A stretch of DNA of 64,000 nucleotides from positions 682,001-746,000 of the forward strand of contig NZ_JAHUZG010000001.1 of assembly GCF_019218285.1 (NCBI RefSeq), written 5' to 3'. This document shows, one piece after another, positions 40,505-52,139 of this stretch; position 1 is the first letter of the stretch, and each line of letters starts with the position of its first letter. The stretch comes from Antarctobacter sediminis. GTDB lineage: Bacteria > Pseudomonadota > Alphaproteobacteria > Rhodobacterales > Rhodobacteraceae. The position numbers and the translations under genes are program-made. The notes under the pieces were generated by a model. The model saw only the letters and a program-made list of their open reading frames with translations, had not been told where the DNA came from and searched no databases.

Positions 40505-41085
40505 CAGCCGTCGGGGCAGGGGCCATGGAAGCCTTGCCCCGACACATCACAAGGACGGGCGCAGAACCGGTTCAAAAGGACCGCCCGGGCGGCTGGCGGA
40601 ATAGGTGGGATGACTCAGGCCACGCCCGGCCCGCCCGGCTGAGCCATTTACCAAGCGCGCCATACGAGGACCAATCACAGCACGTTCTGCGGACAAAGAC
40701 CTTTGGTCATGATTTCGAGAGCCCTGCAAATGGAGCGCCGGACGTCTCGGTTCGACAGGCGTTCGTGCTATCTGTATCTTGGTTTACACGGCATGACCGG
40801 CTCCACTGTGCCAAGCGGAGTGCCAAGAATTGTGCCAAATCGCCGAACAGCGACTCCCGAGGGAGTTTTCTGTTCTAATCCAATGGGTTGGAAGATTTGG
40901 CTCCGGCGGTAGGGATCGAACCTACGACCAATTGATTAACAGTCTAGGAAAGCCGATTTTTCGTCTAAGACCACAAAGCATCTCACAGCCCCATAAACGT
41001 CATAAAAATAGGGGCTTAACGCTCTTGTTTTTGATTCTTGTAGCCCCTAGTTTTATCGTGAAACGCCACGGAGGGTGCCTACTAA
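40505..41085. other. Junction region from host to element
   Basis: This 581-bp stretch has no credible gene. A hairpin (GTCGGGGCA 40510-40518 with TGCCCCGAC 40535-40543) follows the DUF4345 stop. Host-side sequence ends at the left att core (40896-40944). Beyond it lies element DNA with a TAGGGGCT/AGCCCCTA inverted repeat (41009-41016, 41042-41049) and two TGCCTACTA repeats. Confidence 0.6.
40896..40944. repeat. attL core (tRNA-Asn 3' fragment)
   Basis: These 49 bp are identical to 52063-52111 and carry the last part of tRNA-Asn, read on the minus strand. The sequence then diverges, so this copy is not a functional tRNA. Confidence 0.9.
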
Positions 41086-41095
41086 ATGCCTACTA
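41076..41095. repeat. Integrase arm-type sites, left
   Basis: TGCCTACTA occurs at 41076-41084 and 41087-41095, an 11-bp period. The second copy overlaps the integrase start codon at 41086. The same paired arrangement occurs near the right end, which suggests integrase arm binding and possibly autoregulation. Confidence 0.6.
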
Positions 41096-42291
41096 AAAAG
41101 CTGACAGCCCAGTTTGTACGTGACCTGCCCCTTGCTGAGGGCGGGCAAATCCTTTTCGTGGATGAGGCCCTTCCGGGGTTCGGGGTGAGGGTAGGTAGCA
41201 AGTCAAAAAGCTACTTCGCAGAGGGCAGGGTGCGGGGCAAAACCCGCCGCGTCACCATCGCCAAGACGGACAAGCTGACCCTGAACGATGCCCGCAAGCT
41301 GGCCAAAAAGGCGCTGGCCGAAATGGCGAACGATGTAGACAGGAATGCCGAAAAACGCCTTGAGCGCGCCAAGCTGATGACGCTGGGGCAGGCGGTAGAA
41401 GGATGGCTGTCGGAAAGGAACCTTCGCCCCAGCACAGCGGAAAGCTACGCCACGACCATGCGCCGTGAGTTTGGCGATTGGTATGAAACCCAACTGCGCC
41501 AGATTACCCCGGCCACCTTCCAAAAGCGATACATGCAAATCCTTGACCGCACTTCTGCCGGGGCAGCATTGGCCGTGCGCACATTCAAGTCATGCTGGAA
41601 CTGGGCGCGGGCCGACCTGACAGACGGGGCAGGGAACCCGCTCATTCCCGAGTGTCCCGCCGACATTGTGTCCCGCAAGAAAATCCTGCCGAAACCCAAG
41701 CGCAAGGCGACCTACGTGCACGATTGGGCCGCGTTCTTCGATGCCCTCGACAGTCTCGAAACCAACTCGAACCGGCACCGGGACGCAGGCGAAAACTTCC
41801 GGGCTTTCATGGAACTGCTGGCCCGCTCTGGTTTGCGTCAGGCTGAGGCTGCAAACATGCGCTGGGAACATGTGGACATGAAGCGCGGCACCTTCGTCAT
41901 TCCAGCCGAACGCGCCAAGAACGGGCAAGAACTGGTGCTGCCCATGTCGGACCAAACGCGTGCCCTGTTTGAGCGCCTGAGAGAGCGCACAGAGGGCCTT
42001 CCGTATGTCTGGGGAGACACCCCCCTGCGTGATCCTCGCAAGACCCTGACGCGCTTCCGTGAGGCTCTGGGGTGGGATGTAGGTTTTCACGACATGCGCC
42101 GGAGTTTCGCAGTCGTGGCAACCGTACTCGACGTGCAGCAATCGAAGGTGAAACGCCTGCTGAACCATGCCACAGGCAATGACGTTACAGCGGGCTATCA
42201 AGTACTTTCAGACCCTGAAATCCTTCGCAACTCCGTCCAGCAAATATCTGATTGCATTGACGAAAAGCGAATCGCGAAGATAGCTTCTTGA
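41086..42291 (+). CDS. int: Tyrosine integrase (DUF4102/P4 type)
   Basis: A 401-aa site-specific recombinase: N-terminal DUF4102 arm-binding domain (~1-90), SAM-like core-binding domain (~100-190) and C-terminal catalytic domain. Active-site residues are visible: Arg251 in SGLRQAEA, His335 and Arg338 in FHDMRRSF, His361 in LLNHATG and the nucleophile Tyr371 in TAGYQVL. It lies 141 bp inside attL and would integrate the element into tRNA-Asn. GGAGG lies upstream of ATG 41086. Confidence 0.95.
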   Translation: MPTKKLTAQFVRDLPLAEGGQILFVDEALPGFGVRVGSKSKSYFAEGRVRGKTRRVTIAKTDKLTLNDARKLAKKALAEMANDVDRNAEKRLERAKLMTLGQAVEGWLSERNLRPSTAESYATTMRREFGDWYETQLRQITPATFQKRYMQILDRTSAGAALAVRTFKSCWNWARADLTDGAGNPLIPECPADIVSRKKILPKPKRKATYVHDWAAFFDALDSLETNSNRHRDAGENFRAFMELLARSGLRQAEAANMRWEHVDMKRGTFVIPAERAKNGQELVLPMSDQTRALFERLRERTEGLPYVWGDTPLRDPRKTLTRFREALGWDVGFHDMRRSFAVVATVLDVQQSKVKRLLNHATGNDVTAGYQVLSDPEILRNSVQQISDCIDEKRIAKIAS

Positions 42292-42327
42292 CGTTTTAGG
42301 CCGCAATGGCCATTCTTTGCACGCGCT

Positions 42328-42449
42328 TGATCCACGGAGGGAACGCCGCGCGCCGGAAACCACAGCCTGCGGGCTTGGGAATGAGGCTTAGGCACTGGCG
42401 CAGCGAACCCTCAACCCCGGCACAACCTGTGCCCGCACTCCGTGGATCA
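42328..42449. repeat. 12-bp inverted repeat before the alpA-like gene
   Basis: TGATCCACGGAG (42328-42339) recurs inverted as CTCCGTGGATCA (42438-42449) with 98 bp between, in the gap between integrase and AlpA-like genes. The second copy ends 4 bp before the ATG, so the pair may be an operator used through looping or an excisionase-binding region. Confidence 0.45.
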
Positions 42450-42453
42450 TGTC

Positions 42454-42675
42454 ATGACACTGAAACTCAAGAAGACCACCCGCCACCTTCTGACCAGCGC
42501 AGAAGCCGCCGAAATCATGGGCGTGAGCAAACGCTTCCTTGACCTTGACCGGCACGAAAGCCGCGCCAACGGCACTCCGCCCAAAATCCCGTACACCCGA
42601 CTTGGCCACCGGAGCGTCCGCTATCGCTATGAGGACGTGAAGACGTACATCGACGCCAACGTGGTCGGGGGCTGA
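42454..42675 (+). CDS. AlpA-like HTH regulator/excisionase
   Basis: A 73-aa DNA-binding protein with a MerR/excisionase-type HTH (LLTSAEAAEIMGVSKRFLDL) and a basic wing (IPYTRLGHRSVRYRYEDV). In Gram-negative PICIs an AlpA protein activates excision and replication; in prophages such proteins serve as excisionases. ATG 42454 has only a weak GGA upstream. The stop lies 1 bp before the replication-like gene start. Confidence 0.8.
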   Translation: MTLKLKKTTRHLLTSAEAAEIMGVSKRFLDLDRHESRANGTPPKIPYTRLGHRSVRYRYEDVKTYIDANVVGG

Positions 42676-42676
42676 C

Positions 42677-43420
42677 ATGGACCTTTCGACAATCAAACTC
42701 TGGACGGAGCCTGACTGGCCACGTGATAGACTGGGCAAGCCCTATGACTTCGCCCGCATGGGCGATTACATCACGCGCGGGCTAATCCTGTCTGCGCTTG
42801 TGCCGAAATCAAAGGAAGGACGCAGCCGCTGGGGACATGTCCATGTGCTCGACGTGCTGCATCATCGCCTTTTCCGGGCCACCCGCAGGCAGAAGCGTAA
42901 GGATCATCCCGCATTCGGAGATTACATGTTCACGTGGGACGCTCTCGGCACCTTGGCTGAGCAAGCCGCAATGCCGGTGAAGTCCTTCCGAAACACGATG
43001 CAGGACCTCAAGCGCTGGGGCATCGTCCACGTGGCACAGGCCAGTTTGTCGGAGCCAAACAGCTATCGCTTGACCGACCAAGCTTTTGCCGTGGCCCAGT
43101 GCCTGCAAGCCCTGCCTCTGGCCGTGGAATGGCTGCTTCAAGACCTCGACAGCCTCGACACCCAAAAACGCCAGCGGGTGATTGATCTGGGCGACCGACT
43201 GCCCGCCGGGAATTGGCAAAAGCTGTTTCCCAAGTGGATGGCCGAACCTGAGACGCAAGCACTGATCCAAAAATGGCACAAATCCGACGATGGGGGCGGG
43301 CGCAGGCTCTGCCCAAGTCAAACCGGTTTGCAATCCCATGCCCGCGATCTGGTGGCCGCCGCGCTGGACACATCACCGGAAGAACTGGCCTCGATACCGG
43401 GCCTGAAAGTGGTGGCCTAG
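42677..43420 (+). CDS. Replication-initiator-like winged-helix protein
   Basis: A 247-aa protein with a central winged-helix segment (TLAEQAAMPVKSFRNTMQDL, then a beta wing, ~95-145), as found in phage and plasmid replication proteins. It has no helicase or primase motif. GGGGG precedes the ATG. Four iteron-like palindromes begin directly after its stop codon, which is the usual place for an origin bound by such an initiator. The function is inferred from domain type and this arrangement. Confidence 0.6.
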   Translation: MDLSTIKLWTEPDWPRDRLGKPYDFARMGDYITRGLILSALVPKSKEGRSRWGHVHVLDVLHHRLFRATRRQKRKDHPAFGDYMFTWDALGTLAEQAAMPVKSFRNTMQDLKRWGIVHVAQASLSEPNSYRLTDQAFAVAQCLQALPLAVEWLLQDLDSLDTQKRQRVIDLGDRLPAGNWQKLFPKWMAEPETQALIQKWHKSDDGGGRRLCPSQTGLQSHARDLVAAALDTSPEELASIPGLKVVA

Positions 43421-43506
43421 GAACCGTCTACGGTTCCTGCAATGAACTGTCTACGGTTCCTAGGGGGGAACTGTCTACGGTTCCTTGCGGGAACCGTCTA
43501 CGGTTC
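43421..43506. repeat. Four iteron-like palindromes (candidate origin)
   Basis: GAACCGTCTACGGTTC, a 6-bp inverted repeat around TCTA, occurs at 43421-43436 and 43491-43506; GAACTGTCTACGGTTC at 43444-43459 and 43468-43483. Period is 23-24 bp, about two helical turns. The array directly follows the initiator-like gene. Confidence 0.75.
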
Positions 43507-43685
43507 ATTCTGACTTCACTTCACTTCAAGTCATGCCTTCAAATCAGACTTCATGCGTTCCCGGCAAGCCGGACAACGCGAAGAACCTCCGGCTTACGCC
43601 TTCGGAAGAAAGTAAGGCTCCCCTTCGGGAAGCCCCCCAAACCCCCAAACCCCCTTTCCCCACGCGGGGGCTGGCATCGTCAGGC

Positions 43686-44294
43686 ATGACGCGGCATAGT
43701 CTCGACGTACGACCAACCGTGTTATTAAGGCCTGTTCATTTGACCGACCAAACAGCCCAGGACGATCAGTCTTCCGCGCCAAAGAAGGATTGTTGGGACA
43801 AGCTTGAGGTTATCTCGAAATTCGTGGCACCGGCTGTCGTGGCGTTCGCTGCATATTGGTTAAACAGCCAAGTGAGCACTAGGCAGACTAGCGCGGACAT
43901 GGCGCAGATCGCGGTGGGCATCCTCAGCAAAGAACCCGAGTACGATCTGAGTGACACCGAGGTTGATCCTTTGAGAGAGTGGGCCATCGCCGCGCTTCAA
44001 TCTCCGGGGGCGGTGATCCCATTGACCGAGGAGGCGGCGGACCGTCTCAGACAGAAAGGGCTGCCAGTCGCAGGGTGGATGAAGGACGTGTGGGGTTCGC
44101 CGAGTACGCGTGTGTTTTCCACGGTCGAAGAATGCCAAAACTACTTCAAGGGCGACAAAGGCCTATTGTTCGGTTTGATGACGGAACTGGGTTCGGATTT
44201 TGATCTTGACGAGCACTGCAAGGAACGTGTCCGAGTCTATCAGTCGTTGCAGAGCATGATCCAGTCCTTCGCCGACCCTAACGGTTCGCCCTAG
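43686..44294 (+). CDS. Membrane-anchored protein of unknown function (cargo)
   Basis: About 202 aa, with one transmembrane helix near residues 50-65 (FVAPAVVAFAAYWL) and a soluble, acidic C-terminal part (LSDTEVDPLREWAIAALQ). I recognise no family. The start is uncertain; AGG precedes ATG 43686, and the open frame reaches back into the iterons. It lies in the cargo slot between replication and packaging genes, so superinfection exclusion or another anti-phage role is possible but not shown. Confidence 0.5.
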   Translation: MTRHSLDVRPTVLLRPVHLTDQTAQDDQSSAPKKDCWDKLEVISKFVAPAVVAFAAYWLNSQVSTRQTSADMAQIAVGILSKEPEYDLSDTEVDPLREWAIAALQSPGAVIPLTEEAADRLRQKGLPVAGWMKDVWGSPSTRVFSTVEECQNYFKGDKGLLFGLMTELGSDFDLDEHCKERVRVYQSLQSMIQSFADPNGSP

Positions 44295-44610
44295 CACCGC
44301 GACACCGCGCTAGGTCCTTGCCCCAACAAATTAGTTGGGGTATCAATATACCGCTCCGATCTGTCGCAGGATCATCCACTGCCGTGGGCACGTCCGAACC
44401 AAGCGATGACGCCAACACCGTGAACAGCGGATAGAGGCTGAGCGGTTCGGACAAGCCACGACAAGCCAAGACGACAGGCCAGAGCATTCATCCAGACAAG
44501 CCCCAAGGGAACCCTGCCCGCCAAAGGGGGGACCACCGCAACTATCGGGGGGGCTGGGGGTAGGTAGATAGAGGCTTGCCGCCAAGTTTCAGGTGAGGCT
44601 AACTGGCGTC
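44295..44610. other. Noncoding gap in the element with a hairpin
   Basis: This 316-bp gap has no credible gene. A hairpin CCCCAAC/GTTGGGG with a 6-nt loop lies at 44321-44340, shortly after the membrane-protein stop, and may terminate its transcript. The rest could contain a packaging (cos) site, but nothing diagnostic is visible. Confidence 0.5.
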
Positions 44611-45267
44611 ATGAGTAGCAGAGACGATTTTAGAAAACCGATCGTTCGCGAGATTGCCCAGCGGTCTGGTTACAGATGCGCCAACCCGACGTGTCTTAGG
44701 CCAACGATGGGACCGGACGGCGACCAAGGTTCCGCAAGCATCGGAGTGGCGGCGCACATAACTGCTGCGTCAGAGGGCGGGCCTAGGTACGACCTTGACA
44801 TGACGCCCGAAGAAAGGAGCGCCCCCGAGAACGGTATCTGGCTCTGTCAGACTTGCAGCCGCCTGATCGACGTGGACGTGCCCAGCTACCGGGCTGACTT
44901 GCTTCGTGAATGGAAGACGCTGGCCGAGATGCGCGCCTATCTGGGCCTACGCGGTTTCGCTATCGTGGTCTCAAGAAGCTTCGACAAGCTGGAAGAGAAG
45001 ATGCCTGACCTTATTGCCGAGATGCGGAAGGACATTGCTGATTTTCCGTTTTCGCGAACTTGCGTCGCTATGTCGAGCAAAGCGGCCTTCAACGGCGATC
45101 CTGACAACCCGACGTTGATCTACTACACCGACAAATACGAACATCTCGTTTCCAAGATGAAGGTCATGGAGAATTACGCAGCTTTGGTCGATGTGACGAC
45201 CAAGGTGCACACTCCTAAGTTTGAGCTGACCGAAGACTTCGTGGAATACCTCCAACTGCCCAGATAG
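44611..45267 (+). CDS. HNH-domain protein, candidate defence cargo
   Basis: A 218-aa protein. The N-terminal ~100 residues hold an HNH-like zinc nuclease module: RCANPTC, then VAAHITAASEGGPRYD, MTPEERSAPENGIWLC and QTCSRLIDVD, giving the Cys pairs, His and Asn of the fold. This version of HNH, with GPRYD and NGIWLC, recurs in predicted restriction and defence proteins. The C-terminal ~110 residues match nothing I know. ATG 44611 is preferred over GTG 44593. It is distinct from the packaging HNH gene downstream. Confidence 0.65.
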   Translation: MSSRDDFRKPIVREIAQRSGYRCANPTCLRPTMGPDGDQGSASIGVAAHITAASEGGPRYDLDMTPEERSAPENGIWLCQTCSRLIDVDVPSYRADLLREWKTLAEMRAYLGLRGFAIVVSRSFDKLEEKMPDLIAEMRKDIADFPFSRTCVAMSSKAAFNGDPDNPTLIYYTDKYEHLVSKMKVMENYAALVDVTTKVHTPKFELTEDFVEYLQLPR

Positions 45268-45357
45268 ACCTTCGGTTTGGCAACCCCCTTGAGCCACTAG
45301 GACCGATTCGGACCTATTTTTGTTGACCTGCTCGAATCTGGGATTCATGCCAAGTGC

Positions 45358-46902
45358 ATGGTCCTACGCTTCAAGAAACCCAAGGTGTCAACACCGGTCC
45401 ACCATACTAAGCCTGTGGACGCTCTGGCTTCGTGGCTGGAAGCGAACTTCGTCATCCCGAGCGGTATCAGCCGGGGCCAGCCCTTCGGCCTCCACGACTT
45501 CCAGCGCGCCTTCCTCGCTGACCACCTCGCCAACGCCGACGACAACGGGCCAGCCTATCGAACGGTGATCCTGTCGTGCCCGCGCAAGCTGGGCAAAACG
45601 TCTCTGCTGGCCGCGCTTGTCGTGGCCTACATGAGCGAGGACAGCCCCCTGTTTGTGCCCGGATGGCGCGGGGCTATCGCAGGCCCGACCGAAGCACATG
45701 CCCAGATGCTGCTACAGGCCGTTGCTGATCTGCTGGACGTGAACGGGCGCAGCAACATCAAGTATCGCCGCAGCCCAAAGCCGGGCAGTCTCGTGGGGGA
45801 TGGCGGCACCAGCTTTCAGGCTCTGACCGGATCACCGACCCAAGGTCACGGGCTGAGCCTCGACCTTGCCGTGATCGACGAAGCGGGCCTGCTCAAAGAG
45901 AACAGCGAGGTGATGCAGAACCTCTTGGACGCCTGCGCCGCCCGCGATGGCCGCATGGTGATTACCGGCACGCGGGGCACCTCAGCCCAGTACCGCGAAA
46001 AGCTGGAACGTCCCGACCCCTCGACTTGCGTCCATCTCTACAGCGCCTCACTCGACGCTGATCCGGGCGACCGGAAGCTGTGGCACGCGGTCAATCCCGG
46101 TTTGGGCGACATCAAGTCGGAACGCTTCATGGCCGACGCCTATGAGCAAGCCAAGGCCGCAGGAACCACCGTCGCCTTCATGGCGTGGCAACTCAACGCT
46201 CCGGTTGATCCCATGCGCCAGATTGTCATTGAGTATTCGGACCTGTCCGCCTGCTACGACGAAGACGCAGAACCGATACCGGGTGAGCCGGTTTGGCTGG
46301 GGCTTGATCTGGGCGGCGCTGCCAGCATGACCGCCGCCGTGGCCGTCTTCGAAAGCGGCGTGATCCGAAGCGTGGGGGCCTTCCCGTCCGCAGCCATGAC
46401 ACTGGCCGAACGTGGCAAGCGCGATGGCGTGGGCCTGACGTGGCAGGAATGCGCGAAGCGTGGCGAACTCAAGGAAACGACCGGACACGTCTCCGAACTG
46501 ACCGAGTTTGTCCCGCATGTCCTTGAGATGATCCAAGGTCACCCTGTCGTCAGTGTGACTGGCGACCGCTTCCGAGATGCGGAACTGCGTAACGCTCTGG
46601 CCAAGTGCGAGGTGACATGGCCGCTTCAACTCCGGGCGACCGGTCCGAAGGACGGCAACGCCGACATTCTGGCGCTGCGCCGGTTCTTCCTCGCCCGCAA
46701 GGCCCGCCTGAAACGCAGCCTTTTGCTGGAAGCATCGCTTGCCGAAGCGGATTGCCGGGTGGCCGCAACGGGTGCCCTCAGCCTCGACCGTGCCCACCGT
46801 GATGGCCGCAACGATCTTGCCGCCGCCCTGATCCTCGCCGCAGGTAGCCGAATGCGGGACCTCGACCGACCACAAGCCGAGGTGGAGGTGCACGTGCTAT
46901 GA
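45358..46902 (+). CDS. terL: Phage terminase large subunit
   Basis: A 514-aa packaging ATPase/nuclease of the HK97-type Terminase_1 class. Walker A is PRKLGKTS (75-82), Walker B LAVIDEA (170-176), and the C-terminal nuclease half begins near WLGLDLGG with acidic residues further on. It moves DNA into procapsids and cuts concatemers. No small-subunit gene is recognisable beside it. The stop overlaps the HNH gene start by 4 bp. The ribosome-binding site is weak. Confidence 0.92.
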   Translation: MVLRFKKPKVSTPVHHTKPVDALASWLEANFVIPSGISRGQPFGLHDFQRAFLADHLANADDNGPAYRTVILSCPRKLGKTSLLAALVVAYMSEDSPLFVPGWRGAIAGPTEAHAQMLLQAVADLLDVNGRSNIKYRRSPKPGSLVGDGGTSFQALTGSPTQGHGLSLDLAVIDEAGLLKENSEVMQNLLDACAARDGRMVITGTRGTSAQYREKLERPDPSTCVHLYSASLDADPGDRKLWHAVNPGLGDIKSERFMADAYEQAKAAGTTVAFMAWQLNAPVDPMRQIVIEYSDLSACYDEDAEPIPGEPVWLGLDLGGAASMTAAVAVFESGVIRSVGAFPSAAMTLAERGKRDGVGLTWQECAKRGELKETTGHVSELTEFVPHVLEMIQGHPVVSVTGDRFRDAELRNALAKCEVTWPLQLRATGPKDGNADILALRRFFLARKARLKRSLLLEASLAEADCRVAATGALSLDRAHRDGRNDLAAALILAAGSRMRDLDRPQAEVEVHVL

Positions 46903-47237
46903 CCCGCCAGCAAGACCGCAGCACAATCGACACCGCCCGCTGGGCAAGGGTTCGCCACGCTGTCGCCGAACGTGCTGCCTTCCGCTGTGAGTGCTGCGCC
47001 CGCTTCGTGGGTCTGCATGGTCAGGCCGATCACGTAGTGCCGCGCAGCCGATGCGAAGCCGAAGGCATCGACCCTTTCGACATGGCCAACCTGCAATGGC
47101 TATGCGCCGGGTGCCACAGCCGCAAGACAAATGCCGAAAAGATGGAAGGCCGGACCCGCAAGGACCGCACCGCCGTGCGCCGTTCCCGCGTCGTGGGCCG
47201 GGGTGCGTATCTGTCTGCATTGCAGAACGGGGGGTAG
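46899..47237 (+). CDS. Phage HNH endonuclease (packaging-associated)
   Basis: A 112-aa HNH nuclease with CECC, then HGQADHVVPRSR and NLQWLCAGCHSRKTNAEK. Small HNH proteins next to terminase are needed for DNA packaging in HK97-like phages and are standard in cf-PICIs. It overlaps the terminase stop, indicating translational coupling. Confidence 0.9.
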   Translation: MTRQQDRSTIDTARWARVRHAVAERAAFRCECCARFVGLHGQADHVVPRSRCEAEGIDPFDMANLQWLCAGCHSRKTNAEKMEGRTRKDRTAVRRSRVVGRGAYLSALQNGG

Positions 47238-47239
47238 AC

Positions 47240-47875
47240 ATGACCGGCCCCCTCAGCTTTCAGCTTCGACAAGGCGGCCAAACCACCGATGCCAAGACCG
47301 GCCTTGATCTGCTGGCCGACCGTTTCCGCGAAGGCCAGGACGAACTGGGCATCCCCGTAAGCCGGGAAATGCGCCGCTTCCTCGAAGAACAGATGCAGGA
47401 ACTGGCAAGCCGTCACGGGGGCAGCATCACGACTTCCACCACCTTGGCCCGACGCTCTGGCAAGCTTGTTGCCGCTCTGCGCCGTGCTGCCCGAGTGAAG
47501 GACGTGAAGACGCTGGGCAGGGTGACGGGCCGGGTGAAGCTTCGTGCCGACCGGGCCGTGCATGAAGACGGGGGCAGGATCAAACCGACCTCAGGCCAGT
47601 ATGTCACGGTCCCGCTGCCCGCTGCTCTCAATGCGAACGGCACGCCCAAGAAGCAACGTGCCCGCGACTGGCCCAACACGTTCACGGCCAAGAGCAAGGC
47701 GGGCAATCTGCTGATTTTCCAGCGTAGGGGCGGAAAGCTGATACCGCTCTATGCCCTCAAGAAATCCGTCACCGTGCCAGCGAGGCTAGGTGCGGTTCGG
47801 AGCGCCCGCAATGACGCACCGATTTTCGCCGACCGTGCTCTGAGCGCGATCATTGACCATCTCCTAGAAGACTAG
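47240..47875 (+). CDS. Phage protein, possible head/neck component
   Basis: A 211-aa basic protein in the head module, starting 2 bp after the HNH stop with GGGGGG upstream. The C-terminal half is beta-rich with a Lys/Arg-rich surface (TAKSKAGNLLIFQRRGGKLI). I recognise no family firmly; gp10-like neck or minor head proteins are the closest idea from position. Confidence 0.55.
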   Translation: MTGPLSFQLRQGGQTTDAKTGLDLLADRFREGQDELGIPVSREMRRFLEEQMQELASRHGGSITTSTTLARRSGKLVAALRRAARVKDVKTLGRVTGRVKLRADRAVHEDGGRIKPTSGQYVTVPLPAALNANGTPKKQRARDWPNTFTAKSKAGNLLIFQRRGGKLIPLYALKKSVTVPARLGAVRSARNDAPIFADRALSAIIDHLLED

Positions 47876-47887
47876 AAAGGCGCTACC

Positions 47888-49132
47888 ATGCTGAAAAGTC
47901 AAGAAATCCAACTGGCGCAGTCGAAGCGCCGTGAACGTATGGCCGAAATCCAGAAGGCCGATGAAATCTCCGATGAGGGCCGCACCGAACTGCGTTCCCT
48001 GACCGACGCCTACAGCAACGCGGAAACGGAGTTTCGGGCCGCTGTCATCATCGAAGACGCCGAACGGGCCGCGATGCGCGAACCCGACAAGGCCGCGTCT
48101 GACTTCGACGCCGAATGCCGCGCGTTCAACATTGCCGCAATGGTCGAAGCCCTCGAAGGCCAGAAGCCGCTTTCGGGCCGTGAAGCCGAAGTTTCGCAGG
48201 AACTCGAAGAACGCCACGGCGCTGCCTCGAAAGGCGTCCGGTTTCCTTGGGAAGCCCTGCTTGAAACCCGCGCCGACGCCACAGTGACCGCGCCGGATGC
48301 GTCCAGCGGCGACCTCGCAACCCGGCCAACGATGAAGGCGCTGGAACGAATCTTCGAATCCAGCGCCGCCGCCCGCTTTGGCTTCCGCAACATCGCTGTG
48401 ACCGGACAACCCCGCTTCCCTGAACTGACCGGGGGTGCCTCTGCATCGTGGGTGGCAGAGGGTGAAGGCGCTGACGCAGCCGCGATCACCACCAGCGTCA
48501 CCAGCCCCAGCATCAAGACCCTGACCGCGCGCTACCTGCTGAGCCGTCAGGCGATCCGGCAAAACGCCGTGCTGGAAACGATGCTGCGCCGCGATCTGTC
48601 CGAAGTGCTGCGCGAAGCACTGGACCTTGCAGCCTTCCGGGGCACCGGGGCTGACAATCAGCCGTCTGGCCTCGACACCCTGCTGACGGGAACATCTCTT
48701 GGCGCTGTGATCGGCTACGGTTCAATTGTCGATTACTGCGTCGATCTGATGACCAGCACCAAAGCCTCCCGAATGGACGGAATAAGCGTTGCCGCTGTGC
48801 CCTTCGTTCTGGGCAATCTGATGAAGGCGACCTACGGCTTTTGCACCGAATTTGAGATGGCCAAGAAACTTGTGCCCTCCCTGACGTTCTCAAGTCAGGT
48901 GTCCGAGGTGACCGCCGGTCCTCCTGAAAGCGCAACGATGTATCTGGGTGCGCCCGCTGGTCATGCGTGGGTGCCGACATGGGGCAGCCCGGAACTGCTG
49001 GTTGATCCCTACAGCGAGAGCAAGACGGGCAAGGTGGCCCTGACCGTGTTCAGCTTCACCGACATTCTGGTGCAGCGTCAGGCGACGCACTTCATGAAGA
49101 TAACGGACGTGCACCGGGGCGACGGAGCATGA
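47888..49132 (+). CDS. HK97-family major capsid protein
   Basis: A 414-aa capsid protein. The N-terminal ~125 residues are charged and helical (delta/scaffold domain; EIQKADEISDEGRTELRSL), the rest is an HK97 fold with the G-loop region and LSRQAIRQNAVLE spine helix. AAGG lies before the ATG. It is followed, not preceded, by the prohead protease gene, with a 4-bp overlap. Confidence 0.9.
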   Translation: MLKSQEIQLAQSKRRERMAEIQKADEISDEGRTELRSLTDAYSNAETEFRAAVIIEDAERAAMREPDKAASDFDAECRAFNIAAMVEALEGQKPLSGREAEVSQELEERHGAASKGVRFPWEALLETRADATVTAPDASSGDLATRPTMKALERIFESSAAARFGFRNIAVTGQPRFPELTGGASASWVAEGEGADAAAITTSVTSPSIKTLTARYLLSRQAIRQNAVLETMLRRDLSEVLREALDLAAFRGTGADNQPSGLDTLLTGTSLGAVIGYGSIVDYCVDLMTSTKASRMDGISVAAVPFVLGNLMKATYGFCTEFEMAKKLVPSLTFSSQVSEVTAGPPESATMYLGAPAGHAWVPTWGSPELLVDPYSESKTGKVALTVFSFTDILVQRQATHFMKITDVHRGDGA

Positions 49133-49716
49133 TTGAAAGCCGCGCCGTCTGGGCCGCGTCCCTTGAGGTGCGGCAACAGGAAGGGCGTCCCGCGATCACG
49201 GGGCGCTTTCCCTATGGCGAACTGGCGATCATCTCCGACAGAGGATCAGTCAGGAAAGAGACCATTGAACCGGGGGCGTTTTCCTACGCCCTCGAAGACC
49301 CCGACCGGGAGATTCACCTGCTGTCGGGCCACGACTACGGCAAGCCGTTGGCATCGAAGAAAGCGGGTAGCCTCGAACTGCAAGACAGCGCTGATGCTCT
49401 GACCTTCCGCGCCCTCATTCCAGCGGGTGCAGAGAAGATCACCCACGTTGCCGACGCTCTCGCAATGATCGGCGCGGGCTTGGCTGTGGGTGTATCTCCG
49501 GGATTCCGCGTGCCTCCCAAAGACGTAGTGCCCGACGCTGAGACCCTGAAACCCGAACCCGGCAACCCCGGCGTGATGATCCGGCAACTTGCGGCTCTGG
49601 TGCTCTATGAACTCTCAATAGTAACCCGACCGGCCTATCCCGCAACATCTGCTGAACTGCGCAATATGTCGTGCAATCAGTTGCACGCGCCACAACGGAA
49701 GGTGCTTCTACCGTGA
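49129..49716 (+). CDS. HK97-family prohead protease
   Basis: A 195-aa Ser protease that matures the capsid. Features include the N-terminal beta region (ITGRFPYGELAIISD), His in LLSGHDYGKPLA and the catalytic Ser region VGVSPGFR, then ALVLYELSIVTRPAYP, typical of peptidase U35. It overlaps the capsid stop (ATGA). It would remove the capsid N-terminal delta domain. Confidence 0.88.
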   Translation: MIESRAVWAASLEVRQQEGRPAITGRFPYGELAIISDRGSVRKETIEPGAFSYALEDPDREIHLLSGHDYGKPLASKKAGSLELQDSADALTFRALIPAGAEKITHVADALAMIGAGLAVGVSPGFRVPPKDVVPDAETLKPEPGNPGVMIRQLAALVLYELSIVTRPAYPATSAELRNMSCNQLHAPQRKVLLP

Positions 49717-50273
49717 TAGAGCTACTTGAATCTTCGTATACGTTCGGCACCGACCCCGCTTCGCCTGTGGCAAGTGACGTTGCTCTTGAAGCTGGCAGTA
49801 CAGAGGCAGAGGCCGAAGCCATGCTGAGCGCGGCTTGGCAGCAAGTGGAAGCATTCACCGGCAAGACGTACCGCACCACGACGAGCGGCACCGTTATCGT
49901 GAAGGTTTCCAGCCCGACCGTCTGGACGTGGCCGCGCTATCCGTTCCCTGAGGCTCTGACCATCGAAGCCTATAGCCAAGGCGCTTGGGTGGCATGGTCC
50001 GAAACCTACATCGCCGCCGCTGGCCTGATCGAACTGGAACCCTTCACGCTGTACCGGCTGAGCCATACGGACAACGTGCCCGCTGCCACGATCACCCCGG
50101 CGGTCACGCAGGCCGTCCACAACCTTGCCCTGTATCAGCTTATCCAAGGCCCCAGCCGCAGGGAGTTTAAGAGCCAGCAAGCCGGTGACAGCGGGTTTAC
50201 CCGCGAACAACTCATGCCGGTGTTCTACGGCTCTGGTGCTGGGGCACTGCTGGCAAGCGAGGTGCGTCTATGA
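49713..50273 (+). CDS. Head-tail connector protein (gp6-like)
   Basis: A 186-aa protein of the gp6-like connector type, with an N-terminal helical DNA-packaging module (TEAEAEAMLSAAWQQVEAFTG) followed by a beta section (WTWPRYPFPEALTIEAY). I prefer GTG 49713, which overlaps the protease stop, over GTG 49671. It would form the ring under the portal that accepts a tail. Confidence 0.75.
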   Translation: MIELLESSYTFGTDPASPVASDVALEAGSTEAEAEAMLSAAWQQVEAFTGKTYRTTTSGTVIVKVSSPTVWTWPRYPFPEALTIEAYSQGAWVAWSETYIAAAGLIELEPFTLYRLSHTDNVPAATITPAVTQAVHNLALYQLIQGPSRREFKSQQAGDSGFTREQLMPVFYGSGAGALLASEVRL

Positions 50274-51283
50274 TCTGGCCCTTCCGAAAGAAGCAACCCG
50301 ACCTTGAACAGCGCGCCAGCCTTGGCGTGACCCTCGACTATATGAGCCACCGCCGAAAGCAGGTGCTGACCGACGCAGGCGTGCCATTGACCGCCACCGT
50401 GGGCACGGCAACGCATTACTGGCAGTCCGGCTTCGCCATGCTGAACGATGCCACCGGAACCTTGCGCCCTGACGTACTCGCCCAGATGGGCCGCGATCTG
50501 TGCATGAAAGGCGAAAGCGTCTGGCACATTCGGGCCGATGGCTCTGCCCTTGATCTGCTGCCCGTGGCCTATTGGGATGAACTGGGCCGGGGCAAGTATC
50601 ACCTGCACATTGCCCGCGTGAACGAAACAGAGACCGTCAAGGCGCTGGCCGGGGAGGTGCTACACCTCAAGATCAACATGGACCCGGTGCAGCCTTGGAA
50701 GGGCAGAAGCCCGTGGCAGATGATGGGGCTATCCCCCTCGCTAATGTCGGAGATTGAAGGCACCTTCTCGACAGCCGCAACCTACGCAGGCAAGGGCCTG
50801 CTTCCCTTTCCGGCTGCTGTATCGGAGGAACAGAAGGGCAAGGCAATCTCTGGCCTTCAATCAGGGGCCTTGGCAGTCCGGACCAGCAAGGCCGATTACG
50901 CTCAACAGACCGGCGGACATCAAAGCGAATGGCGCAGGGTGGACCTCTCCGCCGATCTACAGAAGACGGACTTCGCCGAAATCAGCCGCGATCTGCACAT
51001 TCGCCTGCTGACCGGGTGCGGCATTCCCCCGGCCTTGATGACAGAGAACGGCAACGCAGGGGCGATGCGGGAAGCATACAGGCTGTTTGTGCTGCAAACC
51101 ATCCAGCCCCTTGCCCGTCAGTGTCTGCCCGAACTCATGGACAAGCTGGGCCTGACCAGCCTCACCACGGACGACATGATGAGCGCGGACGTGGCAGGCC
51201 GTGCCAGAGCCGTGGGCATTCTCACCGGGGCCGGGGTATCCCTCGACAAGGCTTTGAAGATGGCGGGCTGGGATGATGACTAA
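50270..51283 (+). CDS. Phage portal protein (HK97 family)
   Basis: A 337-aa portal, shorter than the ~400 aa of many relatives. It keeps the core motifs WHIRADGSALDLLPV, VLHLKINMD, GRSPWQMMGLSPS and the clip/stem region GCGIPPALMTENGNAG. It overlaps the connector stop by 4 bp. Its place after capsid and protease is unusual; HK97-type phages put the portal before them. Confidence 0.9.
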   Translation: MIWPFRKKQPDLEQRASLGVTLDYMSHRRKQVLTDAGVPLTATVGTATHYWQSGFAMLNDATGTLRPDVLAQMGRDLCMKGESVWHIRADGSALDLLPVAYWDELGRGKYHLHIARVNETETVKALAGEVLHLKINMDPVQPWKGRSPWQMMGLSPSLMSEIEGTFSTAATYAGKGLLPFPAAVSEEQKGKAISGLQSGALAVRTSKADYAQQTGGHQSEWRRVDLSADLQKTDFAEISRDLHIRLLTGCGIPPALMTENGNAGAMREAYRLFVLQTIQPLARQCLPELMDKLGLTSLTTDDMMSADVAGRARAVGILTGAGVSLDKALKMAGWDDD

Positions 51284-51665
51284 GCTTTCCCCTCTCGACA
51301 TGGCCAAGAGAGCCGCAGCCCGTAGCCCGATCTACAAGACAGCCGTGCTCTATGGCGTTGCCCATGACAATGGCACCACCGCCTTCACCGCCGAGGGTAA
51401 CCTACAGTTTGACCGGCTGGAACAGACCTTCGGCTATGTCGATATGAGCCGGGAAACCACCCTGACCGCTGCCCAGACTTATGAAGGCGACCACCTGCTA
51501 ACCGTGCTGACTGCTGAGGCACCGAATGGCGTGGCCCTGATTCTCTTGGATGGCCGGTTCTACACCGTGCAGAGGGTGCAAGCTGGGGACGCTCTGGGCG
51601 TGTCCGTCACATTCGCCTGCAACAGCATCCCCGACGATGAACCGCCCGAGATAAGGAATGCCTGA
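51273..51665 (+). CDS. Phage head-closure-like protein, uncertain
   Basis: A 130-aa mainly beta protein (MSRETTLTAAQTYEGDHLLTVL) overlapping the portal gene. Size and place fit a head-tail adaptor or stopper, but I do not recognise the family. ATG 51276 is an alternative start. Confidence 0.6.
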   Translation: MMTKLSPLDMAKRAAARSPIYKTAVLYGVAHDNGTTAFTAEGNLQFDRLEQTFGYVDMSRETTLTAAQTYEGDHLLTVLTAEAPNGVALILLDGRFYTVQRVQAGDALGVSVTFACNSIPDDEPPEIRNA

Positions 51666-51958
51666 TGCCCGTGAAGCAACTCGACTGTGAACCGCTGCCC
51701 AACATCCCCGGCAAAGACGCCACCGCCGAACAACTGGCGCAGGCCATGCACGATCTGATCATCTGGGCATTAAACCGGCGACTTGGGGAACTGATTGCCG
51801 CTGGCATGACTGGCGATGACCTGAAATACCTGCACCGCATCGCCAAGCGGTTCGAGAAGGGCACGAACAAGGTAAGCGACTGGGGATGGCTGCAAGAACA
51901 TATGCCCGAACTTGAGGCCGTGAGCATCCAATACACCCGGAACTGCCCCAAGACTTAG
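51665..51958 (+). CDS. Small element-borne protein, unknown
   Basis: A 97-aa mainly helical protein (AEQLAQAMHDLIIWALNRRL), start overlapping the preceding stop (TGATG). It is the last gene of the element; its stop overlaps an inverted integrase-arm-like site. A terminase small subunit or adaptor role is possible by elimination only. Confidence 0.55.
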   Translation: MPVKQLDCEPLPNIPGKDATAEQLAQAMHDLIIWALNRRLGELIAAGMTGDDLKYLHRIAKRFEKGTNKVSDWGWLQEHMPELEAVSIQYTRNCPKT

Positions 51959-51998
51959 TAGGCAAGGAAAGCCCGAACTGCCTACTATCTGCCTACTA
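51956..51998. repeat. Integrase arm-type sites, right
   Basis: TAGTAGGCA (51956-51964, inverted) is followed by TGCCTACTA at 51979-51987 and 51990-51998. The 11-bp period equals that of the pair at the left end. Confidence 0.6.
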
Positions 51999-52062
51999 AT
52001 GCCAAACACCCCTGAAACACCCTCTGCTGGGTGTCTCGTAAATCTCTGATTTACTTGGGATT

Positions 52063-52111
52063 TTTGGCTCCGGCGGTAGGGATCGAACCTACGACCAATT
52101 GATTAACAGTC
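52063..52111. repeat. attR core within tRNA-Asn
   Basis: The second copy of the 49-bp repeat, continuous here with the 5' half of the tRNA gene. The element thus restores a complete tRNA at its right end. Confidence 0.9.
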
Positions 52112-52139
52112 AACTGCTCTACCGCTGAGCTACGCCGGA
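52065..52139 (-). tRNA. tRNA-Asn (GTT)
   Basis: A 75-nt tRNA with an encoded CCA end. The acceptor stem TCCGGCG pairs with CGCCGGA, the anticodon loop reads CTGTTAA with anticodon GTT, and the T arm GTAGGTTCGATCCCTAC is regular. It is the insertion target of the element and remains intact. Confidence 0.97.

Follow-up and report, generated by a model that had tools for sequence, protein, structure and literature searches.

Is the island at a tRNA-Asn gene of Antarctobacter sediminis, which carries head genes of viral type and no recognised tail genes, a complete phage satellite or what remains of a prophage? We analysed the 64,000-nucleotide stretch that contains it (the window, to which all coordinates refer). 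The head-only island spans 40896-52111 (11,216 bp), and the Pfam/PHROG annotation places all of its genes on the + strand.

Architecture of the island

40896-40944, attL: exact 49-bp repeat that copies the tRNA-Asn 3′ end; spacing to attR 11167
41086-42291, +, tyrosine integrase with arm-DNA-binding domain (PF00589 2e-14, PF13356 5e-10, phrog_1 1e-43)
42442-42675, +, AlpA/excisionase-like HTH protein (PF12728 7e-6, TIGR01764 2e-6, phrog_66 2e-4); alternative start, ATG at 42454
42677-43420, +, putative replication initiator (via a relative in L054)
43420-43506, putative origin with four iterons, GAACYGTCTACGGTTC, directly 3′ of the initiator gene
43485-44294, +, cargo 1, no assigned family; uncertain start (ATG at 43686); the congener G002 has a replacement here
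44593-45267, +, cargo 2, HNH nuclease-like (PADLOC PDC-M68A 6e-23, SAVED_HNH 8e-15; phrog_21516 5e-26)
45250-46896, terminase cassette (TerL and upstream intergenic region), differs from G002
45358-46902, +, large terminase subunit (TerL), HK97 type (phrog_9 1e-49; PF20441 7e-5, under cut-off)
46899-47237, +, HNH endonuclease adjoining TerL (PF01844 3e-7, phrog_589 2e-16)
47240-47875, +, 211-aa protein between HNH and capsid, no assigned function; conserved in 4 elements
47888-49132, +, major capsid protein, HK97 family, with a long N-terminal region (PF05065 2e-14, TIGR01554 8e-13)
49129-49716, +, S78 prohead protease (PF04586 1e-16)
49713-50273, +, probable gp6-like head-tail adaptor; ORF open from 49671, start of orthologues near 49713
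50270-51283, +, portal protein (PF04860 1e-11)
51273-51665, +, predicted head-closure/stopper protein (predicted fold, AF2 pLDDT 84)
51665-51958, +, small protein, no assigned function; last gene before attR, conserved in 7 elements
52063-52111, attR: exact 49-bp repeat at the tRNA-Asn 3′ end
52065-52139, −, tRNA-Asn(gtt), intact (ARAGORN)

The 49-bp direct repeats of the original prediction are exact copies of each other, and the gene set ends cleanly at attR, as it had claimed. attR overlaps the 3′ part of the tRNA-Asn(gtt), which stays intact; tRNA 3′ ends serve phages too as attachment sites. The six genomes of the genus that we compared (the host's own included) have the right flank at tRNA-Asn in common and differ in their left flanks, and in none of them does the window's left flank adjoin a clean empty site.

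Pfam and PHROG family matches bear out each of the integrase, TerL, HNH, capsid, protease and portal genes that had been named. An AlpA-type regulator and a replication module are features of Gram-negative PICIs. The claimed AlpA-like protein does find matches here, although its PF12728 and TIGR01764 scores lie slightly below the curated cut-offs. The claimed initiator has no direct family match in Pfam, PHROG and TIGRFAM-type profile searches of the window protein, and its profile retrieved nothing informative from solved structures. Its putative identity comes from a 33% identical relative (L054, 15320-16078) that matches phrog_678 ‘replication initiation O-like’ at 1e-5. The accompanying iterons are found as described: four copies against at most three in any of 20 shuffles, and they are present in G002 too (L014). 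PICI origins have the same layout in the available text of PMC6092414.

A predicted cargo slot is likewise present and holds two genes. Cargo 1 matched nothing in Pfam, PHROG, TIGR-type or PADLOC profile searches, and DNA identity to G002 drops to background there. Cargo 2 resembles the N-terminal HNH domains of CBASS/SAVED-type effectors (PADLOC profiles); phrog_21516, which it matches, is a family without assigned function. Across the element lineage the cargo is variable and includes HNH effector-like and TIR genes.

Head, neck and packaging genes

Among solved structures, the TerL family profile hits PDB 6z6d (‘Terminase large subunit’) at 1.8e-76, which we take to be HK97's large terminase subunit, and the TerL matches among phages are HK97-type at 26-30% identity. 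In HK97, too, an HNH gene adjoins the terminase. Through its HNH region, the island's HNH protein also matches one PHROG named TerS (phrog_4581, 3e-8). A TerS would be expected beside a terminase of the HK97 type. Pfam and PHROG identified none in the island's 14 proteins, and further profile searches gave no candidate. A diverged TerS may hide, for example, in 51665-51958, whose product has no informative match in the same searches. An orthologue of the 211-aa protein matches phrog_6367 (no assigned function, 3e-6); the AF2 model of the window protein was unusably poor (pLDDT 40) and was discarded. Adjacent head ORFs share 4-11 nt at each of four junctions (46899, 49129, 50270 and 51273), which agrees with the claim of open, tightly overlapped head genes. 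Searched alone against solved structures, the portal gave nothing informative.

The original prediction also named a connector. The protein at 49713-50273 belongs to a 17-member family and has no direct family match; its profile aligns with those of gp6-like adaptors of other elements over 136 columns with a probability of 31% (other pairs compared, 0.1-0.6%) and retrieved nothing informative from solved structures. This profile match, though weak, makes a gp6-like head-tail adaptor probable and lends the connector claim a degree of support. The next candidate, at 51273-51665, is a predicted stopper. The best PDB matches of its model in Foldseek are the SaPI1 neck, the P1 connector and SPP1 gp6/15/16 (E 1.4e-3 to 3.5e-3; TM 0.43-0.47 by query length), and 54 viral models match at E up to 0.001, the best being a putative head-tail joining protein (8e-6). 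At profile level, the window stopper showed no link to the phrog_161-type proteins that other elements encode.

None of the island's 14 proteins matches a tail or lysis family in Pfam or PHROG, and five of six proteins of the host's own prophage, taken as a control, do. In the relatives, 115 out of 130 representative non-core ORFs have families listed, and none of these is a tail or lysis family; the listings cover the best 25 of 35 and the best 25 of 95 PHROG families, the best 25 of 39 Pfam families on the left side and all Pfam families on the right side. The claimed lack of tail, lysis and repressor genes, the features of an intact prophage, thus describes the island as far as recognised families go; in the wider family a repressor is not always lacking, since repressor-like HTH proteins are found in some relatives.

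The family of related elements

Of 394 genomes sampled from the host's family, Rhodobacteraceae, 44 have a portal match, fragments included; the only strong matches outside the family are in G674 and G1115, from the class and phylum samples. We read 40 genome loci around a portal match, and 32 of them have TerL-(HNH)-capsid-protease-portal in this same order. The eight without the module are two remnants, one reduced to the capsid end, protease, portal and stopper (G082, L053) and one to part of a portal (G104, L238), a contig end (L015), the GTA-like L022, and L021, L232, L233 and L234, whose portal matches are weak or partial. Beyond the portal match, neither L022 nor these last four have any of the module's head genes, and L021 has one weak integrase match. 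Two scans of IMG/VR, from each of which we took the 80 best loci, gave 152 loci, and 133 of these have all five module genes; at least 10 pairs among them share identical DNA.

The 28 repeat-bounded genome elements measure 9,765-12,116 bp (median 10,427, SD 491), and 26 of them sit at an intact tRNA, ten tRNA kinds being used. The 12.1-kb outlier carries an IS66 transposase; the others are 9.8-11.2 kb long. Twelve further IMG/VR contigs bounded at a tRNA fall at 10.1-11.15 kb; they share no 1-kb stretch at 95% identity either with the 28 or among themselves. Two metagenome contigs extend beyond one unit, each of them a tandem pair made up of different elements, and terminal repeats, as expected of excised circles, were not seen among the metagenome contigs examined. 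The junctions in L214 and L215 may be those of circles or of tandem copies.

Two portal-family members found no match at E 1e-3 by tblastn in 50,697 phage records. Tailed relatives of the element, the observation set beforehand as refuting, were found neither in the phage records nor in the family loci read. The 12 genes common to the element and G002 have dN/dS values of 0.10-0.29, indicating purifying selection, with synonymous sites near saturation in the case of TerL. At the terminase cassette, 150-base windows (45246-46895) are 44-63% identical to G002, and the flanks 76-92%.

Interpretation and comparison with known systems

Together, the 28 repeat-bounded elements, their constant size, the purifying selection and the lack of any tailed relative in the phage records and family loci read argue against a decayed prophage and for a head-only satellite that is being maintained, as had been predicted. 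Very likely, the island is a complete integrative satellite that builds the head and packages its DNA itself, the particle to be joined to a helper's tail and released by helper lysis. That it is the persisting remnant of a tailed phage whose tail, lysis and repressor genes have been lost is highly improbable. Single copies do decay, as L053 and L238 illustrate, but the repeat-bounded elements keep one gene order within 9.8-12.1 kb, and this one ends cleanly at attR; we rejected decay on such family evidence (sizes, repeats, order and dN/dS).

That the host's gene transfer agent (GTA) supplies the tails, the stopper docking them and GTA lysis releasing the particle with no live helper phage, is about as unlikely. 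It would account for the clustering of strong relatives, most of which lie within the host's own family, although phage host range would equally give this restriction. G000 and G002 contain clusters that, from gene order and recall, we take to be RcGTA-like, and in G002 this is the only other PF05065 capsid locus. The GTA neck 6tba is among the stopper's fold matches (rank 13), but ordinary phage necks outrank it, and the neck proteins have no convincing sequence match to GTA. Indeed, tblastn of the stopper, adaptor and neighbours against the host prophage and GTA-like regions gave nothing convincing as to a helper, the best single match of a neck protein being E 0.004 over 39 residues. The host also carries a siphovirus-like prophage (L279). 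Its GTA-like cluster (L278) is separate from the island, which ruled out a GTA remnant. Slimmer still is the chance of an autonomous head-only element whose particles enter cells tail-less, as they might in vesicles, or of a capsid-based DNA carrier: the analysis identified no helper, and integrase, putative initiator, packaging and head genes are all the island's own, but adaptor and stopper genes make most sense with a tail attached, and no lysis or export gene was recognised.

For the satellite reading, we infer excision, replication, packaging, helper dependence and tail capture from the gene content. The integrase and AlpA/excisionase-like protein would excise the island from tRNA-Asn, and the initiator would act on the iterons to replicate it. 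The HK97-type TerL and HNH protein would cut and package about 11 kb of DNA into small procapsids built from the element's own capsid protein, protease and portal. Adaptor and stopper would close the head and present a docking face, where a pre-made helper tail would join, and helper lysis genes would release the particle.

Such an element would work like a cf-PICI, a group reportedly treated by Alqurainy et al. 2023. We do not class it as one, because it is smaller and has no recognised TerS, and because the comparison is by descriptions, not sequences. In the available text of PMC10690885, PMC10803314 and PMC11389934, cf-PICIs share with it an integrase and specific attachment site, their own capsid, protease, portal, TerL, HNH and connectors (here a stopper by predicted fold and an adaptor by weak profile match), and the absence of tail genes. 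By contrast, their gene list includes a small terminase subunit (PMC10690885), they average 14 kb (PMC10803314) against about 10.4 kb in this lineage, and the island encodes a putative initiator in place of a primase. With no TerS recognised and the shorter length, the claim of exactly the cf-PICI set overstates the match. The host groups named in the available text of PMC10803314 include no alphaproteobacteria; that of PMC10690885 calls cf-PICIs widely distributed across Bacteria.

The Streptomyces satellites MulchRoom and MiniFlayer, as PMC10690885 partly describes them, also encode head and packaging, and MulchRoom has an integrase and a tail of helper length; they differ in TerS, scaffolding protein, direct terminal repeats, virulent helpers and actinobacterial hosts. 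Classical PICIs, in the available text of PMC6092414, are likewise small, with an integrase and an origin directly 3′ of the initiation gene, but use helper virion proteins. P4-like satellites package into a helper capsid whose size Sid redirects (PMC6092414 and PMC10690885, in part); the island has no Sid-type family match and has its own capsid, protease, portal and terminase instead. RcGTA resembles the island in its HK97-type head genes and in the general fold of the stopper (6tba). GTAs have tail genes and neither integrase nor att sites, whereas the island has an integrase and att repeats and no recognised tail genes. HK97-type phages share the TerL type, S78 protease, HK97-family capsid and HNH beside the terminase; the element differs in being tail-less, in its TerL-HNH-capsid-protease-portal order and in a portal too diverged to match any of the phage records.

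In the available text of PMC10803314 and PMC10690885, satellites that build their own heads come mainly from enterobacteria, Pasteurella and Firmicutes, and from Streptomyces, respectively. The lineage here is alphaproteobacterial and head-only, with its own portal type that no phage record searched was found to match. Some thirty islands like this one, found in related bacteria, point to a widespread family of parasites that complete their particles using another virus's parts. Elements of this kind are easily miscalled incomplete prophages. With their near-fixed size, exchangeable terminase cassette and variable cargo, capsid-size limits, packaging specificity and tail choice become testable in environmental bacteria.

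Bounds and gene content

The repeats that the original prediction took for attachment sites proved to be exact 49-bp direct repeats at 40896-40944 and 52063-52111, the right copy overlapping an intact tRNA-Asn in its 3' part. Gene calls with Pfam and PHROG matches bore out the predicted gene set, and no match to a tail, lysis or repressor family came from any of the 14 window proteins in either database. All genes of the element lie on the + strand, in this order:

First half, left to right (+): integrase, AlpA/excisionase-like HTH, putative initiator, four iterons, two cargo genes
Second half, left to right (+): TerL, HNH, 211-aa unknown, capsid, S78 protease, probable adaptor, portal, stopper, 97-aa unknown

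The AlpA/excisionase-like protein matches its families just under the cut-off. The putative initiator has no direct family match, and a relative 33% identical to it matches replication-initiation families at 1e-5. The iterons lie directly 3' of the initiator gene, the same layout as that of PICI origins, which excerpts of PMC6092414 place directly 3' of the initiation gene. Cargo 2 is similar to the HNH domains found in effectors of SAVED/CBASS type, and the Pseudophaeobacter element carries as cargo a TIR-like protein (L013:11651-12505; PADLOC 1e-10); judged by sequence, both would be consistent with satellites bearing anti-phage genes.

A family of head-only elements

The closest portals occur in five genomes (the congener G002, 90% identity; G331, 81%; G082, 66%; G121, 59%; G242, 56%) and three named contigs (a Rhodobacterales MAG, 67%; Thiosulfatihalobacter marinus, 57%; Pseudophaeobacter flagellatus, 57%). 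From these names the host family is taken to be Rhodobacteraceae. TerL, capsid, protease and portal keep a constant order in 7/8 of these relatives, with no HNH match in the Pseudophaeobacter locus, and the sole exception, G082, holds a remnant (L053). Direct repeats of 46-47 bp are present in six of the seven module-bearing relatives, and in five of them an intact tRNA-Asn, -Pro or -Thr marks the end; the repeat of locus L055 contains tRNA-Asn sequence, no intact tRNA being called in the locus, and at L011 the repeat, next to tRNA-Tyr, is 19 bp long.

Portals about 30% identical could belong to ordinary prophages. This reading is disfavoured by the loci themselves, 20/21 of which show TerL-HNH-capsid-protease-portal; the other (L015) is cut by a contig end. 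Direct repeats bound 16 of these 20 head-only loci, and acceptable ones were sought and not found at L020, L062, L065 and L070. Among eight loci read from class and phylum searches, L235, L236, L237 and L239 show the same module, two of these four coming from hosts that do not belong to the family of the window's host (tRNA-Met, tRNA-Asn); L238 is a partial portal; and L232-L234, which lie on short or truncated stretches, match the portal weakly and in part and have no further gene of the module. L021 and L022, the latter a GTA-like locus, are weak portal matches without the module. In total 40 loci were read, window included, with the module present in 32 and absent in 8.

A single-protein portal search matched 44/394 genomes of the family, fragments included; flanks read for 25 of the 44 show the module in 22 and not in G007, G082 and G104. 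The portal profile (1e-10; at most five candidates scored per genome, making the counts minima) matched at least 5/385 class-sample and at least 6/398 phylum-sample genomes, nine altogether: five of the family and, outside it, G674 and G1115 strongly and G461 and G580 as weak partial matches. Genome G004 carries two related head-only elements, L016 and L018, both among the 21 distant loci, at different tRNAs (Leu, Thr) with 3.3 kb in common at 96% identity; a further portal, L015, lies at its tRNA-Asn.

In IMG/VR, profile scans confirmed 430 portal relatives and at least 485 capsid relatives. In the 152 loci of the best 80 of each (median length 9.7 kb with flanks of at most 10 kb; longest parent contig 34.3 kb), all five head genes are present in 133. 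At least 10 pairs share identical DNA, and L010/L151 are the same DNA as the G002 element. Twelve loci are bounded at a tRNA (10.1-11.15 kb), none near-identical to the 28 bounded genome elements or to each other. Two contigs (L194, L116) hold tandem pairs of different head-only elements, ~10.2-10.3 kb apart; at L055 and L083 a second integrase-like gene directly follows the first element, as in tandem integration.

Close relatives with tail and lysis genes, which the original prediction had named as evidence against it, were looked for, and none was seen among the families listed for the relatives' ORFs or the loci read. The scan covered 115/130 representative non-core ORFs from the 28 bounded elements (3 integrases, 2 left-side and 10 middle ORFs fell outside); representatives included neither all clusters nor all stand-alone ORFs under 85 aa, and ORF picking let in some ORFs of the wrong frame and overlooked some of the core genes, so that small-gene counts are approximate. 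Right-side ORFs matched 16 Pfam families, a complete list with no tail or lysis family, and the 25/35 PHROG families listed include head closure Hc1, adaptor Ad1 and repressor-like regulators. For left-side ORFs, the 25/39 Pfam and 25/95 PHROG families listed include initiators, primases, gp6-like adaptors and a transposase. As a positive control, the host prophage L279 yielded tape measure, major tail, distal tail, tail fibre and amidase in 5/6 proteins. This siphovirus-like prophage (G000:C2:462001-482000), with its tape measure, tail fibre and amidase, is a possible helper. The host genome also holds a head-tail cluster (L278, G000:C1:1048001-1068000) that, from its gene order, we take to be RcGTA-like.

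Size, attachment sites and exchange

Bounded elements (28/32) span 9,765-12,116 bp (median 10,427, SD 491). The 12.1-kb outlier, L069, has an IS66-type transposase and is the only one of the 28 that exceeds the window's element in length; a tRNA-Leu lies within the L069 bounded stretch (L069:5322-5409), and this element may be composite. A T=3 head at the packing density of HK97 (39.7-kb record, T=7 head) would hold ~11.1 kb, close to the observed size ceiling; P4 is a counterexample, using a T=4 head for ~11.6 kb, so the T=3 fit does not settle the capsid class.

An intact tRNA (Asn, Pro, Thr, Tyr, Leu, Glu, Ser, Arg, Cys or Met) has one of the two repeats at its 3' end in 26/28 bounded elements; L055 and L069 have a tRNA-like repeat at which no intact tRNA was called. 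Repeat length falls to 14-19 bp in some elements (shortest in L236), yet these repeats too sit at the tRNA end. At the tRNA-Asn of six congeneric genomes (L250-L253, L014 and the window) the right flank is conserved and the left flanks differ, and the site looks like a hotspot. There G004 has the portal of a distant head-only element, and G003 a 697-aa protein, integrase-like by eye only.

The comparison with G002 gave a dN/dS of 0.10-0.29 for 12 genes (AlpA and cargo 1 are not among them), with synonymous divergence of TerL near saturation. Most of the element is 61-97% identical at the DNA level, with drops over cargo 1 (about 43600-44345) and, to 44-63%, over TerL and the preceding intergenic region (about 45250-46896). 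TerL is 76% identical between G002 and G331 and 44-55% between the window and seven others compared, whereas portal identity among window, G002 and G331 is 81-90%. TerL and its upstream DNA therefore appear to be exchanged as one cassette, perhaps a terminase with its cutting site.

An integrase-type gene stands last, adjoining the tRNA, instead of first in L016, L019, L060, L061, L063, L071, L237 and L239, among others, including at least 5/7 of those whose gp6-like adaptor lies upstream of TerL.

The neck and the likeness to known satellites

The 130-aa protein after the portal has a confident predicted structure (pLDDT 84) whose fold resembles stopper and head-closure proteins (SaPI1 neck, P1 connector, SPP1, Pam3, lambda, GTA, R4C). 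The match to solved structures is moderate and fold-level (best E 1.4e-3, TM by query length below 0.5), that to models of viral head-tail joining proteins reaches 8e-6, and the protein is predicted to be the stopper. The protein between protease and portal is probably a head-tail adaptor: its 17-member family gave no direct family match (three relatives tested) and aligns with gp6-like adaptors over 136 columns at 31% probability, against 0.1-0.6% for other pairs compared. Those gp6-like adaptors lie upstream of TerL in seven other elements; both types occur together in 0/28 elements, and neither was called in 4/28. The element's genes cover the head's side of the joint, and none past it was recognised, which suggests that a tail would be provided in trans.

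For cf-PICIs (doi 10.1016/j.chom.2022.12.001) we follow the content given in excerpts of PMC10690885, PMC10803314 and PMC11389934; the last describes three capsid radiations, so the label already spans separate origins. Excerpts of PMC13345588, PMC11773190 and PMC12324425 hold nothing on this head-only lineage, and searches of an open-access library, at the level of listings and abstract openings, turned up no report of such elements in Rhodobacteraceae or Alphaproteobacteria, earlier mention in subscription papers or supplements being possible. Mechanistic steps beyond gene content we infer, and cf-PICI membership is unproven; the element would work like a cf-PICI, and it very probably belongs to a large family as a real, complete and maintained satellite of the head-only kind.
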